Source of the DNA: Campylobacterales bacterium
GTDB taxonomy: Bacteria > Campylobacterota > Campylobacteria > Campylobacterales > Nitratiruptoraceae
DNA: 41,569 nt
NCBI GenBank assembly: GCA_027002625.1
Contig: JALWZJ010000151.1
Location: 1-41,569, forward strand
Direction of reading: 5' to 3'
Positions 38 through 10,155 of this stretch are shown in pieces; positions within the stretch are counted from its first letter, which is position 1; every line of letters starts with the position of its first letter. Position numbers and translations under genes: made by a program. The notes beneath the pieces were generated by a model. It saw nothing but the letters and a program-made list of their open reading frames with translations. It was not told the DNA's origin and ran no database searches.

Positions 38-1339
38 ATGAAAATTTCGCTACTGACGGATCTGTACGAATTTACCATGGCTCAGATCTATGTAGAGGAG
101 GGGATGGAAGAAGAAGCCGTTTTCGAGTTTTTCGTACGGCCCGATGGCAGACGAGCCTACTACGTGATGGCGGGTACGCAAGAGCTTTTGAAGATGCTGC
201 GAGAGTTTCGCTTCGAGGACGAGGAGATCGAGTATTTAGAGCGAAGCGGTAAGTTTGGCCAAAAGTTTTTGGATTATCTTAAAGATTTTCGGTTCAGTGG
301 CGATGTATGGGCTTTGATGGAGGGAGAGATATTTTTGGGAGGTGAGCCGGTGGTGAGCGTGCGTGCGCCTCTGCCCCAGGCCCAGCTCGTCGAGACCATC
401 CTCATCAATACCTTGCAACATCCCATCCTCGTGGCCACCAAGGCGGCCAGATGCGTGAGCGTGGCCCAGGGTACCACCCTCGTCGATTTTGGTCTGCGCA
501 GAGCCCAGGGCAAGGATGCTGGGATACAAGCGGCCAGGAGTTCTTACATCGCGGGATTTGCAGGCACCTCCAATGTGCTGGCGGGTAAGGAGTACAGTAT
601 CCCGGTCTTTGGGACGATGGCCCACTCTTTTGTGATGGCTCATGAAAGCGAGGAGGAGGCCTTCGAGCGCTTCATGCGACGCTATCCAGACAACTCCATC
701 TTGCTTGTGGATACCTACGATACGATCGAAGGGACCAAAAAAGCCATAGCGGTGGCCAAGCGGCTGGGTATACCTCTGCGGGGCGTGCGCCTCGATAGCG
801 GAGATATCGAGACCCTTGCGACGAAGGTGCGCCAAATGCTCGATAGTGCGGGATTTGGGGAGGCTTTGGTACTGGTGAGTGGAGGAGTGGATGAGTTTGT
901 GATCGCCGATCTTTTGGCCAAAAACGTACCTATCGACGCTTGGGGTGTGGGGACCAAGCTGGTGGTGAGTGAGGATATGCCAAGCCTCGATTGTGCCTAT
1001 AAGCTGGTGGAGTACGCCGGCAAACCTCGCTTCAAAAAGAGTAGAGGCAAAGTCACACTGCCCGCTCAAAAGCAGATAAAAAGAGTGTGGGACGAGCAGG
1101 GATTGTTCAAAGAGGATCTGGTGGAGGTGATGGAGGCGATGCCCGAAGGGTTGCTACACAAGGTGATGGAGAGAGGCCAGATACGCTACCAAGAGAGTTT
1201 GGACTCTATTCGCCAACGAGTGGCCATGGGGCTGCACCAGCTGCCACCTGCGATGCTGCAGCTGCGACCGAAGACTCTGTATCTACCTCGGCTTGGACCA
1301 AAGCTTTCGGCCTTGTATCGAAAGCTCATGACTCCATGA
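38..1339 (+). CDS. pncB: nicotinate phosphoribosyltransferase
   Basis: Full ORF; N-terminal SLLTDLYEFTMAQ...FEFFVR and central HSFVMAHESEEEAF / LDSGDI typical of NAPRTase. Confidence 0.9.
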   Translation: MKISLLTDLYEFTMAQIYVEEGMEEEAVFEFFVRPDGRRAYYVMAGTQELLKMLREFRFEDEEIEYLERSGKFGQKFLDYLKDFRFSGDVWALMEGEIFLGGEPVVSVRAPLPQAQLVETILINTLQHPILVATKAARCVSVAQGTTLVDFGLRRAQGKDAGIQAARSSYIAGFAGTSNVLAGKEYSIPVFGTMAHSFVMAHESEEEAFERFMRRYPDNSILLVDTYDTIEGTKKAIAVAKRLGIPLRGVRLDSGDIETLATKVRQMLDSAGFGEALVLVSGGVDEFVIADLLAKNVPIDAWGVGTKLVVSEDMPSLDCAYKLVEYAGKPRFKKSRGKVTLPAQKQIKRVWDEQGLFKEDLVEVMEAMPEGLLHKVMERGQIRYQESLDSIRQRVAMGLHQLPPAMLQLRPKTLYLPRLGPKLSALYRKLMTP

Positions 1340-3653
1340 TCCTTTTGAGCTCCTCGGCGTCGATCATCTCCTTTTGGATGAGGGCTTGGGCCACCTTTTC
1401 GATCTTGTCCCAGTGGGCTATCACCATCTCCTCGCTCTTTTGGCGAGCTTTTTGGATCCAGTGGGCGATGCGCTCCTCGATCAAGGATTTGTAGAGATCT
1501 CTATCCACGTTTTGCACCAGCGTGTCGATGTGGATATATCCGATCTCCTCATCCATCCCGAAGGTGGCGATGAGGTTGTATGCTTCCCAGGTGGCTTGCT
1601 CCAGATCTTGAGCGGCTCCGGTGTCTTCACCCTCTTCGGGAAATTTCTTGAGCTTGGCGATACGTCCGGCCAGGGCTACGCAGATATCGTTGAAGAGCTC
1701 CTCTTTGGAGATGCTGGCTATAAATTCGTCGCTATAGGAGACAAATCCCAATGCCTCGGCGCGGGGAGTGATGGTGACTTGCTCTATTTTTATGTCTGGT
1801 AGCAGTAGATAGCTCAGTACCGCATGGCCTGCCTCGTGGTAGGCCGTTTTGCGCAGATCCTTTTCTGGATTTCGGATACGTTTTTTATCGATCTTTTGGC
1901 CATATTTGATGTTGTTGATCTGTTCGATGAGGATCTCTTCGGTGATGTAGGAGAGATTCTTTCTGATCACGTACAAGGCCGCCTCTTTCGCCACCCTTTG
2001 CATCTCGTAGCCGCTAAGACCACTCATATACCGTGCCACCCGGTCTATATCGATCTTGCCGTCGTTGGGTTTTTTGAGGATCTTTTTTACGAAGTATTTG
2101 CGCGCCTCCATGTCCAGCTCCGGCACTTCGATGAGGATATCTATGCGCTCGCTGGCCAGTAGGTTTTTGTCTATGGAGTCGAGGTGTATGGCCGTAGCGA
2201 TGGTGAAGACATACTCCTCGTCACTCACCGCGTCTATCTGAGCGGCTATGGTGTCGTAGGGGATGGGGATATCCTCCTTGCCGTCGAGCTCGTCCAAAAA
2301 GACGATGGCGGGGGATAGCTCCTTGGCTTTTTGGTAGGCGCTTTGAATGAGATTGACATCGTACAGATCCGATCCTGCCAGCATCACAAAAGGCATCTGC
2401 GCCTCTTTAGCGAATGCGTAGGCGAGAAGTGTCTTGCCCACCCCCTTGGGTCCATGTAGCAGCAGCCCCTTTGGCATGGAGATATCGAAGCGCTTGACGA
2501 TCCGGGGCTCTTTGATGATGCGTACGATCTCTTTGAGACTCTCCTTGACCTGTTTTTGGCCGGCGATATCGCCAAAGCAGATGGAGGAGTAGCCGATGTA
2601 GGGCTTCTCGGTAGGCTCGGTGAAGTAGGGCAGCTTGGTGATGGTAGCGTGGGTGCATAGCAGATGGATCACCTCCTCCTCTTCGATTTTCCATTTGAGC
2701 TGCAGTGTCTCGTTTTTGCGCACCATGCTTTGCAAAAACTCATCATCGATCCTCTCCAGCAGCTTCTGCAAAGCAGGATCGCTTTGTATGAGGATCTTTT
2801 TCCCCTTGCCAAGAGCTGGTTGGATCAGATCGATGAGTAGATCGGGCAGTTTTTTGTGGAGGCGTCTGGCGTTGAGATAGGGTGCAAACGAGAGTGTCAG
2901 CAGCTCCACCACTCTCTTGTCGGCTATCTTGATACGTAGATCCAGTCTGGTCTGGAGGGTATGGATCGTCTCTTTGAGTATCTTGTCGGCTATTTTGATC
3001 AAAGATCTCAAACGCAGTGGATGGAACAAGATGATGTAGTTTTGGACCATGAGAGAAAGTAGCTCTGGATCGATGGCGCTCTCCATCACATCGTAGATGA
3101 TCTTTTTCTCTTTGGCGATGAACTCCACCAGTTTTGCCTGGGCTTTGAGGGGATCTTTTTTGTAAAATTTCAAAAAATCCTCTTTTTTGATCAAAGAGGA
3201 GCCCAGTGTAGTGGTGAAGATGATCAAGGTTTGGCCAAAATCGATTTCCGTTTGCGTAGTGGAGTGCAGCTGTGCCAGGAGTGAGAGCTGGATGGAGTTG
3301 TCGCACTTTTCTATATCTTTGAAGACCACGATAGATTTGGGGTGGCTTTGGACGAAAAGTGTGAGCTCCCCTTTTGGACCTATGAGCTTCTTTTCGTCCG
3401 AGGGTTCGGTATATTGGGCCATATCGAAGATTTTGATCGCCTCGTACTCCTTTAGATACTTTTGCAGTAGGGTGGCCGTGTAGAGTTTGCCGCTGTTGTG
3501 AGGGCCGATGAAGGTAAAGAGCGCTTTGAACTTCTGCGGCACCGGGGAGAGCTCCGCATGTATCAAAGCCTTCACCAGCTGTTCGATCGCATCGTTTTGG
3601 CCAAAGATGTGGGATTTGAGACTTTTCTTTAATCGTTCATATTTTTCCAACAT
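1326..3653 (-). CDS. FtsH-like AAA+ / M41 zinc metalloprotease with an additional N-terminal Clp-like AAA module
   Basis: Walker A GPKGVGKT, Walker B AIVFLDELDG, M41 HEAGH; N-terminal HIFGQNDAIEQL..GPHNSGK. Start set at ATG 3653 (MLEKYERL) preceded by GAAGAAG rather than the longer ORF start. Confidence 0.85.
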   Translation of the reverse strand: MLEKYERLKKSLKSHIFGQNDAIEQLVKALIHAELSPVPQKFKALFTFIGPHNSGKLYTATLLQKYLKEYEAIKIFDMAQYTEPSDEKKLIGPKGELTLFVQSHPKSIVVFKDIEKCDNSIQLSLLAQLHSTTQTEIDFGQTLIIFTTTLGSSLIKKEDFLKFYKKDPLKAQAKLVEFIAKEKKIIYDVMESAIDPELLSLMVQNYIILFHPLRLRSLIKIADKILKETIHTLQTRLDLRIKIADKRVVELLTLSFAPYLNARRLHKKLPDLLIDLIQPALGKGKKILIQSDPALQKLLERIDDEFLQSMVRKNETLQLKWKIEEEEVIHLLCTHATITKLPYFTEPTEKPYIGYSSICFGDIAGQKQVKESLKEIVRIIKEPRIVKRFDISMPKGLLLHGPKGVGKTLLAYAFAKEAQMPFVMLAGSDLYDVNLIQSAYQKAKELSPAIVFLDELDGKEDIPIPYDTIAAQIDAVSDEEYVFTIATAIHLDSIDKNLLASERIDILIEVPELDMEARKYFVKKILKKPNDGKIDIDRVARYMSGLSGYEMQRVAKEAALYVIRKNLSYITEEILIEQINNIKYGQKIDKKRIRNPEKDLRKTAYHEAGHAVLSYLLLPDIKIEQVTITPRAEALGFVSYSDEFIASISKEELFNDICVALAGRIAKLKKFPEEGEDTGAAQDLEQATWEAYNLIATFGMDEEIGYIHIDTLVQNVDRDLYKSLIEERIAHWIQKARQKSEEMVIAHWDKIEKVAQALIQKEMIDAEELKRIMES

Positions 3654-3728
3654 AACTTCTTCTTTTCCATTCAATTGATGGGCATAATTATAGTACAATA
3701 CACCACTAACGGTTTCGAGGAACGTGTG

Positions 3729-4514
3729 ATGAGGTATCTGACTCTTTTGTGTATCGCGACTCTACTAATGGCCAAGGTCCACACCGTACGCCTGGAGCCT
3801 GTGGAGCTCTACCATATCAAAGCGGCTGTGGCGGCTTCGGTGGTGGAAGCCAACGAGCGACTCGAGGGTAAAAATGTACAGAAGCGGCTGGTGGTAAGGC
3901 TCGACGACAGGATCGATCGGGCCAACCTCCAAGCGCTCCAGACCAAGCTCGCACTCTTGCGTGATATCATCCAGATCACCCGACAAAGCGTAGCCAACCT
4001 CCAAGAGACGATGAAGCTTCGCCAAAGAGATTACGAGCGGATCAAAAACCTCTCCACCAAGTCACGCTACGAAAAGGATCAGCGAAAAGCGGCCTATCTT
4101 TTGGCCAAAAACAGCTACTTGGGGGCTAAGGAGAAGCTCAAAAATCTTTTGATGAGCCAAAGTGACATCGAGCTCTCCATCGCCCGCACCAAAGATCTGA
4201 TCGCTAAGAAAAACATCAAAGTGAGCGGCTATGTCTACAAAGTCTATCCAAGACGTGGTGATATGGCCGCTTTGGGCGCTCCTTTGGTGGATGTGGCCGA
4301 TATCTCCAAGGCCAGAGCCGTACTCTATCTCACACCGCAAGAGATACGAGATCTTGACCATAAAGCTATCTATATTAACGGCAAGCATACCGACCTCAAA
4401 TTTGCCAAACTACTCAAAATCACCGACCAAAACTACATCACCCAATATAGAGCCGAGCTGATACTACCAGCTCCCAAACTTTTTAATCAATTTATCAAAG
4501 TGGAGATACGATGA
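3729..4514 (+). CDS. HlyD/RND-type periplasmic efflux adaptor (membrane fusion protein)
   Basis: Signal-like N-terminus MRYLTLLCIATLLMAK, long coiled-coil, C-terminal beta-barrel-like segment; ATGA overlap with next gene. Confidence 0.65.
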   Translation: MRYLTLLCIATLLMAKVHTVRLEPVELYHIKAAVAASVVEANERLEGKNVQKRLVVRLDDRIDRANLQALQTKLALLRDIIQITRQSVANLQETMKLRQRDYERIKNLSTKSRYEKDQRKAAYLLAKNSYLGAKEKLKNLLMSQSDIELSIARTKDLIAKKNIKVSGYVYKVYPRRGDMAALGAPLVDVADISKARAVLYLTPQEIRDLDHKAIYINGKHTDLKFAKLLKITDQNYITQYRAELILPAPKLFNQFIKVEIR

Positions 4515-9591: not shown

Positions 9592-10155
9592 ATGAAAAGA
9601 GTATGGAAAGCGCTGTTGCTCTCTTTGGCGGTATGGGCCGATAGTGTCAACGGCTGGACCAAGCTGCATGAGGCGATTTATAAAGGTGATTTGAAAAGAG
9701 TCAAGGAGCTGGTGCGAAAAGGTGCCGATATCGAAGCGGCCAGCAAAGCGGGCATCACCCCCCTCATTATGGCTGTGAAGATGCGAAATCTCGAGATCGT
9801 GCGCTATCTCGTCTCCCAAGGGGCCGATGTGGAGGATGAGGACAACAACGCTATGACACCTCTGCACTACGCCGTGGGGCAGCGACGCATCAAGATAGTC
9901 AAGTTTTTGCTCTCTCATGATGCCGACATCAACGCCAAAAATCGATACGGCATCACACCACTACATCAAGCGGCCTATATGGGGGATGTGAAGCTGATCG
10001 ATCTGCTGCTGGGGCTCGGTGCCGATCCAAACATTAAAAATAGATTAGGAATGACCCCTTGTCAGCTCGCCTACGCCAAACATAGATTTTTGGTGGCACA
10101 ATATATGCAACCATTTACAAAAGGAGCCTGTGTTGTTGGTGACGATCAACGCTAA
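9592..10155 (+). CDS. secreted/periplasmic ankyrin-repeat protein
   Basis: Several ankyrin repeats (GITPLIMAVKMRNLEIVRYLVSQGADVE; NAMTPLHYAVGQRRIKIVKFLLSHDADIN) after a signal-like N-terminus. Confidence 0.85.
   Translation: MKRVWKALLLSLAVWADSVNGWTKLHEAIYKGDLKRVKELVRKGADIEAASKAGITPLIMAVKMRNLEIVRYLVSQGADVEDEDNNAMTPLHYAVGQRRIKIVKFLLSHDADINAKNRYGITPLHQAAYMGDVKLIDLLLGLGADPNIKNRLGMTPCQLAYAKHRFLVAQYMQPFTKGACVVGDDQR

Follow-up and report, generated by a model that had tools for sequence, protein, structure and literature searches.

A soluble Clp–FtsH fusion metalloprotease with degenerate AAA+ motor motifs in Campylobacterota and Desulfobacterota

A Clp-type and an FtsH-type AAA+ module fused to an M41 metalloprotease

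The 41,569-nucleotide stretch analyzed here (henceforth the window; contig JALWZJ010000151.1, assembly GCA_027002625.1, from a member of the Campylobacterales, family Nitratiruptoraceae) codes on its minus strand, at positions 1326–3653, for a 775-residue protein in which a Clp-type AAA+ module, an FtsH-type AAA domain and an M41 zinc metalloprotease are combined in a single polypeptide. The open reading frame, which a preliminary description made from the sequence alone had picked out without giving its strand, begins with an ATG at 3653, upstream of which lies a purine-rich GGAAAAGAAGAAG, and ends with a stop codon at 1326–1328. Pfam recognizes three domains in the product: AAA_2 at residues 45–176 (2e-12), AAA at 397–511 (1e-20) and Peptidase_M41 at 597–772 (1e-33). 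All features of the protein given below lie on the minus strand.

The first 285 residues (2799–3653) form a degenerate AAA+ module of the Clp/Hsp100 nucleotide-binding domain 2 (NBD2) type. In NCBIfam, residues 4–273 align with residues 447–711 of ClpA, which correspond to its D2 domain (1e-20), and the closest solved relatives recovered by a sequence search of the PDB are the D2 domains of ClpC1, ClpC and ClpB (4e-18). An AlphaFold2 model of this module alone has a mean predicted local distance difference test score (pLDDT) of 92.3, and its best 50 listed Foldseek matches in the PDB are all entries of the Clp/Hsp100 family (ClpB, ClpC, ClpA and Skd3), the single-domain ones being the NBD2/C-terminal domain of ClpB and the AAA+ domain of Skd3. 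There follows a linker (residues 286–355; 2589–2798), in which the AlphaFold2 model places a small α/β element (residues 286–340) joining both modules; this is the least conserved part of the protein, with 33% identity to the homolog L005 as against 59–79% in the other parts. The C-terminal half comprises the FtsH-type AAA domain (residues 356–590; 1884–2588), assigned by Pfam and by FtsH structures matching in both sequence and fold, and the M41 domain (residues 591–775; 1329–1883). Its closest solved relatives by sequence are FtsH proteins (3.5e-53), and FtsH structures are likewise the top Foldseek matches of the full-length AlphaFold2 model (mean pLDDT 87.5), which was built from a 48-sequence family alignment.

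No transmembrane helix is evident: the highest 19-residue Kyte–Doolittle mean is 1.2, compared with 2.56 in the canonical FtsH of the same genome. The protein is thus a soluble FtsH-type protease with a Clp D2 module at its N-terminus, as had been proposed; the two observations that the preliminary description had set against its own proposal, an N-module that is not AAA+ and N-terminal transmembrane helices, were both looked for and neither appeared. As this architecture and its degeneracy recur in full-length homologs, the arrangement in the window is not a chance one.

All of the motifs quoted in the preliminary description are present, and the catalytic decay that it saw in the N-module goes further than it had stated. 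The Walker A motif of this tier, GPHNSGKL (3483–3506), keeps the lysine and has lost the threonine; its Walker B, VVFKDIEK (3306–3329), has lost both acids (Asp to Lys and Glu to Asp); and its pore loop is deleted as well, leaving an alignment gap at LIGPK-GEL (3363–3386) where ClpC1 has GAPPGYVGYEEGG. The C-terminal half had been called intact, which holds for its Walker A (GPKGVGKT; 2430–2453), its Walker B (FLDELD; 2283–2300) and the zinc-binding and catalytic HEAGH (residues 606–610; 1824–1838), to which D683 in TGAAQDLEQAT (1605–1607) adds the third zinc ligand position. It does not hold for the remaining motor elements. Pore loop-1 is truncated to SDLYDVN (2352–2372), with six residues including the FVG missing; R503 (2145–2147) is the sole arginine finger kept, the second being replaced by Ile506, such that ASERIDI stands at the canonical two-finger motif RPGRFDR; and the sensor-1 asparagine usual in FtsH is gone.

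Motif census, phylogeny and order of the motor losses

The family occurs in Campylobacterota, Desulfobacterota and one Janthinobacterium. Full-length homologs were found in 5 of the 16 genomes of the same genus that were searched (the window's own included) and in others of the order; within the class, about 30 of 397 genomes carry the fusion, as counted by a match to the N-module together with open-frame length. Among the named collections, those with the fusion are Nitratiruptor, Hydrogenimonas, Sulfurimonas and Sulfuricurvum, and there are many matches at 42–53% in metagenome-assembled genomes of Desulfobacterota or ‘Deltaproteobacteria’, with the Janthinobacterium version at 30%.

A motif census was taken over 64 distinct family sequences. 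The six-residue gap at the FVG pore loop-1 is found in all 64, the loop being present in 20/20 canonical FtsH proteins, and the second arginine finger is seen in none. The phenylalanine of the FVG motif binds substrate (review PMC9020784). The Walker A lysine of the FtsH half is universal (64/64); Walker A and B of this half are both complete in only 19, the most frequent change being that of the Glu to Gly. Both Walker motifs of the N-module are complete in 6/62 sequences, all of them basal members, and a deletion has removed the aromatic pore loop of this module from the Nitratiruptor and Hydrogenimonas types. The protease site is conserved throughout this set, with HExxH in 64/64 sequences and the zinc-binding Asp in all 63 that span the position. 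Hence, as to the earlier suggestion of a two-ring protease with one pseudo-ATPase ring, the catalytic degeneration of the N tier is borne out, but the suggestion falls short for the presumed FtsH ring, which is crippled family-wide and in most relatives is without its Walker B. The family-wide loss of the FVG loop and one arginine finger, and mostly of Walker B, does not suggest an active motor beneath a passive platform.

Phylogenetic trees were built from the FtsH half alone, with FtsH as the outgroup. The comparison with canonical FtsH, which had been put forward as a check, recovers the family as a separate clade, with a support of 99 in a quick tree and 100/100 in a careful one. Within it, a motor-reduced crown of 28 sequences is monophyletic (100/100), and six motor-intact sequences, four of the Sulfurimonas type and two of family f11, fall outside the crown next to the FtsH outgroup. 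The placement of two members on long branches (L014 and L075) is uncertain. A tree of the N-module likewise groups the family (support 91) separately from the D2 domains of ClpA and ClpB. The changes needed on the tree are one loss of the N-terminal motor, one of the C-terminal Walker A and four of the C-terminal Walker B. The decay is thus polarized: all Walker motifs are still in place in the six basal members, the motor of the N-module died in a single event, and the C-terminal Walker B disappeared on about four occasions.

Close pairs give ratios of nonsynonymous to synonymous substitution rates (dN/dS) of 0.04–0.19 in the degenerate N-module, 0.02–0.10 in the C-terminal AAA domain and 0.02–0.17 in M41. 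The dead N-module is therefore under purifying selection.

Genomic site, gene neighborhoods and paralogs

The fusion gene of the window is a lone gene. To its left lies a convergent gene for nicotinate phosphoribosyltransferase (38–1339, plus strand), the 3' ends of the two overlapping by 14 nt, and to its right a divergent gene for a 279-residue periplasmic-adaptor-like protein (3675–4514, plus strand), for which a Pfam scan returned zero hits; these two genes border the site. In the congeners G004 and G005, the two flanking genes directly adjoin each other, the fusion gene being absent (empty sites at L195:5353–7514 and L194:5811–7990). As G017, from another genus, carries the fusion at the same site as the window, lineage-specific loss is the simpler reading of its absence from some congeners. 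A plasmid comparison gave no match that would point to a plasmid origin of the locus, and viral contigs yielded eight distant M41/FtsH-like matches and one Clp-like match, with no full fusions. Two of the M41/FtsH-like proteins on viral contigs (L181 and L182, on contigs of 250 and 394 kb) match the C-terminal half alone. The genome that carries the window also encodes a canonical FtsH (C88), ClpB (C1) and ClpA (C20), and further AAA_2 genes resembling ClpX, HslU and Lon by sequence, so that the fusion protein is an addition to the standard set and not a replacement of it. The host is described as a deep-sea bacterium. Elsewhere in the window, a 187-residue ankyrin-repeat protein is encoded at 9592–10155 (plus strand), following genes for an efflux protein of the outer membrane and for a predicted methyltransferase, an order that recurs in L194.

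Clustering of the neighbors of the relatives gave lineage-specific neighbors only, with no partner gene conserved across the family. The Hydrogenimonas members have a truD-like gene upstream (identified by eye), and those from Desulfobacterota have mixed neighbors. Among the motor-intact forms, the near copies L168 and L169 adjoin genes for one TIR, one TrkA-N and one DUF4062-ATPase protein. In L169 (379–14788) these form an apparent operon, which comprises an 887-residue protein, the TIR and TrkA-N proteins, the motor-intact fusion, which has an overlapping stop/start, and a 1636-residue DUF4062-ATPase protein; it looks like an undescribed conflict system. A YbjN-like gene lies directly upstream of all four Sulfurimonas-type motor-intact fusions (L060:9089–9607; L063:3220–3738; L170:7649–8191; L171:6709–7341), raising the possibility that YbjN is an adaptor of these versions. 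The neighborhood of L170 additionally codes for two DUF4062-like proteins (Pfam was run on one), and that of L171 for ankyrin repeats.

Sulfurovum has a 448–460-residue protein corresponding to the FtsH half only, and a separate gene for the N-module was sought nearby and not found. In four such proteins (L070, L071, L076 and L077), Walker A reads GKG and the arginine finger is missing, with HEAAH in L070 and L071. On a few contigs (L057, L069 and L077) the gene is in broken frames. A further set of FtsH-like paralogs of about 560 residues (L003, at C86:13673–14725 of the window's own genome, and L162, L163 and L164) has lost the HExxH, and in 4/4 of these the YVG pore loop is intact. The hydrophobic N-terminus of L003 suggests two transmembrane helices. 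By these sequence features, the paralog, which is found in many Campylobacterota genomes, appears to be a membrane pseudo-protease and the mirror image of the fusion.

Proposed mode of action and relation to known AAA+ systems

The accepted picture of AAA+ proteases is that of motors threading their substrates into a proteolytic chamber, and Clp and FtsH are normally separate machines. The fusion family joins the two in one polypeptide. Our preferred reading, to which we assign a probability of about 0.5, is a soluble, probably hexameric, two-tier zinc metalloprotease whose AAA tiers serve as scaffold and gate and not as a classical threading motor. The M41 disk would still need the AAA tiers for its assembly and for the guarding of its entrance. 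The N tier would be a scaffold on which substrates or adaptors dock, working without nucleotide or, at most, binding it, while in the branch of the window the FtsH tier would bind and might slowly hydrolyze ATP, opening and closing the gate without pulling on the polypeptide. Proteins that lack structure or are partly unfolded would serve as substrates, or else a small number of specific partners that the N tier recognizes. The ancestor would have had Walker motifs intact in both tiers, with the Clp ring doing the pulling, and at least sometimes would have resided in conflict-type (TIR/STAND/ankyrin) gene clusters; the lineage of the window would be a stand-alone, motor-reduced derivative. More tentatively, we suggest that in this widespread bacterial family ATP-driven threading was dismantled stepwise, starting with the FtsH pore loop, followed by the Clp motor once and then by the FtsH ATPase about four times, with the M41 site kept, to give a gated, motor-less compartmental metalloprotease from a fully active Clp–FtsH double motor of conflict clusters.

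Several points weigh against this reading. Hexamerization and the stacking of the rings are assumed by analogy with FtsH and Clp. The shortened loop of the family keeps a conserved hydrophobic or aromatic residue (LFD; Tyr431 in the window protein) that might still grip substrate. In the window protein itself both Walker motifs of the FtsH tier are intact, so that ATP hydrolysis by this tier is likely possible. Nor is the protease inviolable, given L189 (2309–4999), which the Sulfurimonas genome of L060 carries as a further family member and which is outside the 64 of the census: it has YESGR in place of HExxH with intact ATPase motifs in the FtsH tier, and could be a protease-dead partner or paralog. 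No neighbor conserved across phyla was found. As to the conflict ancestry, the neighborhood of L063 is otherwise of a housekeeping kind, and the link to conflict clusters comes from few motor-intact loci, of which L168 and L169 are near copies.

The intact Walker motifs in the FtsH half of the window protein and of its nearest relatives, the one arginine finger kept and an LFD that could stand in for the FVG would also fit a normal ATP-driven unfoldase and translocase in the FtsH ring, with only the Clp-like ring a pseudo-ATPase serving as an adaptor platform. We consider this doubtful, as the FVG loop is deleted in 64/64 sequences, the second arginine finger and the usual sensor-1 asparagine are gone, and the Walker B of this very ring was lost about four times independently in relatives with M41 left intact. 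A motor could alternatively be supplied in trans, in a mixed complex where FtsH or the protease-dead paralog pulls and the fusion protein cuts. The complementary defects within one genome (the C86 paralog retains the YVG loop and lacks HExxH), the distance of 5–13 kb between both genes in several Nitratiruptor genomes and the existence of heteromeric FtsH complexes (PMC9020784) are consistent with this; yet the paralog is present in many genomes without the fusion, the two are unlinked in the Hydrogenimonas-type G059 and in G017 and G018, local synteny explains their proximity, and a membrane-anchored paralog is set against a fusion with an extra N tier, all of which render such a complex improbable.

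It also appears improbable that the window protein is a conflict or defense protease that, like its motor-intact relatives in clusters, would be activated by an invader signal and cleave a cellular or phage protein. The TIR, DUF4062 and ankyrin neighbors of L168–L171, the YbjN gene of all four Sulfurimonas-type members and the patchy presence or absence of this single gene within the genus speak for such a role; against it, the window gene and its crown relatives have housekeeping or unrelated neighbors, the weak PADLOC matches are generic AAA, and the cluster-linked forms do not share the dead motors. Finally, the loss of many motor motifs, the absence from most congeners and the retention of only the C-terminal half in Sulfurovum might be taken for signs of a decaying, functionless relic, which is very hard to reconcile with frames that are open in most full-length loci, dN/dS of 0.02–0.19 across the AAA and protease parts and a near-universal HExxH.

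If the protease site is indeed under selection amid an ordered loss of motors, as in the gated-chamber reading, the family would reveal roles of AAA rings beyond pulling, such as assembly, gating and recognition. It offers a natural series of active, half-active and dead motors on one protease, which should be useful for experiments. Its signature is a Clp D2 module with an FtsH lacking the FVG, which a generic FtsH or AAA annotation would conceal, and we found no description of a Clp–FtsH–M41 polypeptide in the open-access literature.

With FtsH, YME1 and AFG3L2 the fusion shares the order of AAA and M41, the HExxH...D site, about 30–35% identity over residues 356–773 and the fold (3kds, 7tdo and 6nyy); it differs in that the transmembrane anchor and the FVG pore loop-1 are missing, a Clp module is added at the N-terminus and only one of the arginine fingers is kept, and it forms a clade of its own. 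Residues 1–285 resemble the NBD2 of ClpC, ClpB, ClpA and Skd3 in fold and sequence, and a single-NBD2 arrangement is shared with Skd3; unlike Clp/Hsp100 proteins, the module is fused to a metalloprotease, has lost the Walker A threonine, Walker B and the pore loop, and falls outside the ClpA and ClpB D2 clades. A ClpP-docking IGF/IGL loop would be expected to play no part where a protease is already fused. The FtsH-ternary conflict system has a third component with two FtsH-type AAA domains, the first of them inactive (Kaur et al. 2020, PMC7159879), alongside MoxR and vWA partners, with a peptidase domain going unmentioned (PMC7159879). The fusion is closely comparable in its two AAA domains in one protein, with the N-terminal one inactive and the second of the FtsH type; it differs, going by that description, in that its N-terminal domain is of the Clp type and M41 is present. 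No MoxR or vWA protein was seen among those neighbors of the window's fusion gene that were scanned with Pfam, the rest of the window being unscanned. The plastid FtsHi proteins, termed pseudo-proteases (PMC8197885), and the Ycf2–FtsHi motor (8xku and 8xqw) are among the Foldseek matches and are also FtsH relatives with one activity lost. In their case, however, it is the protease that is lost and the motor that is kept, of which the fusion family presents the reverse.

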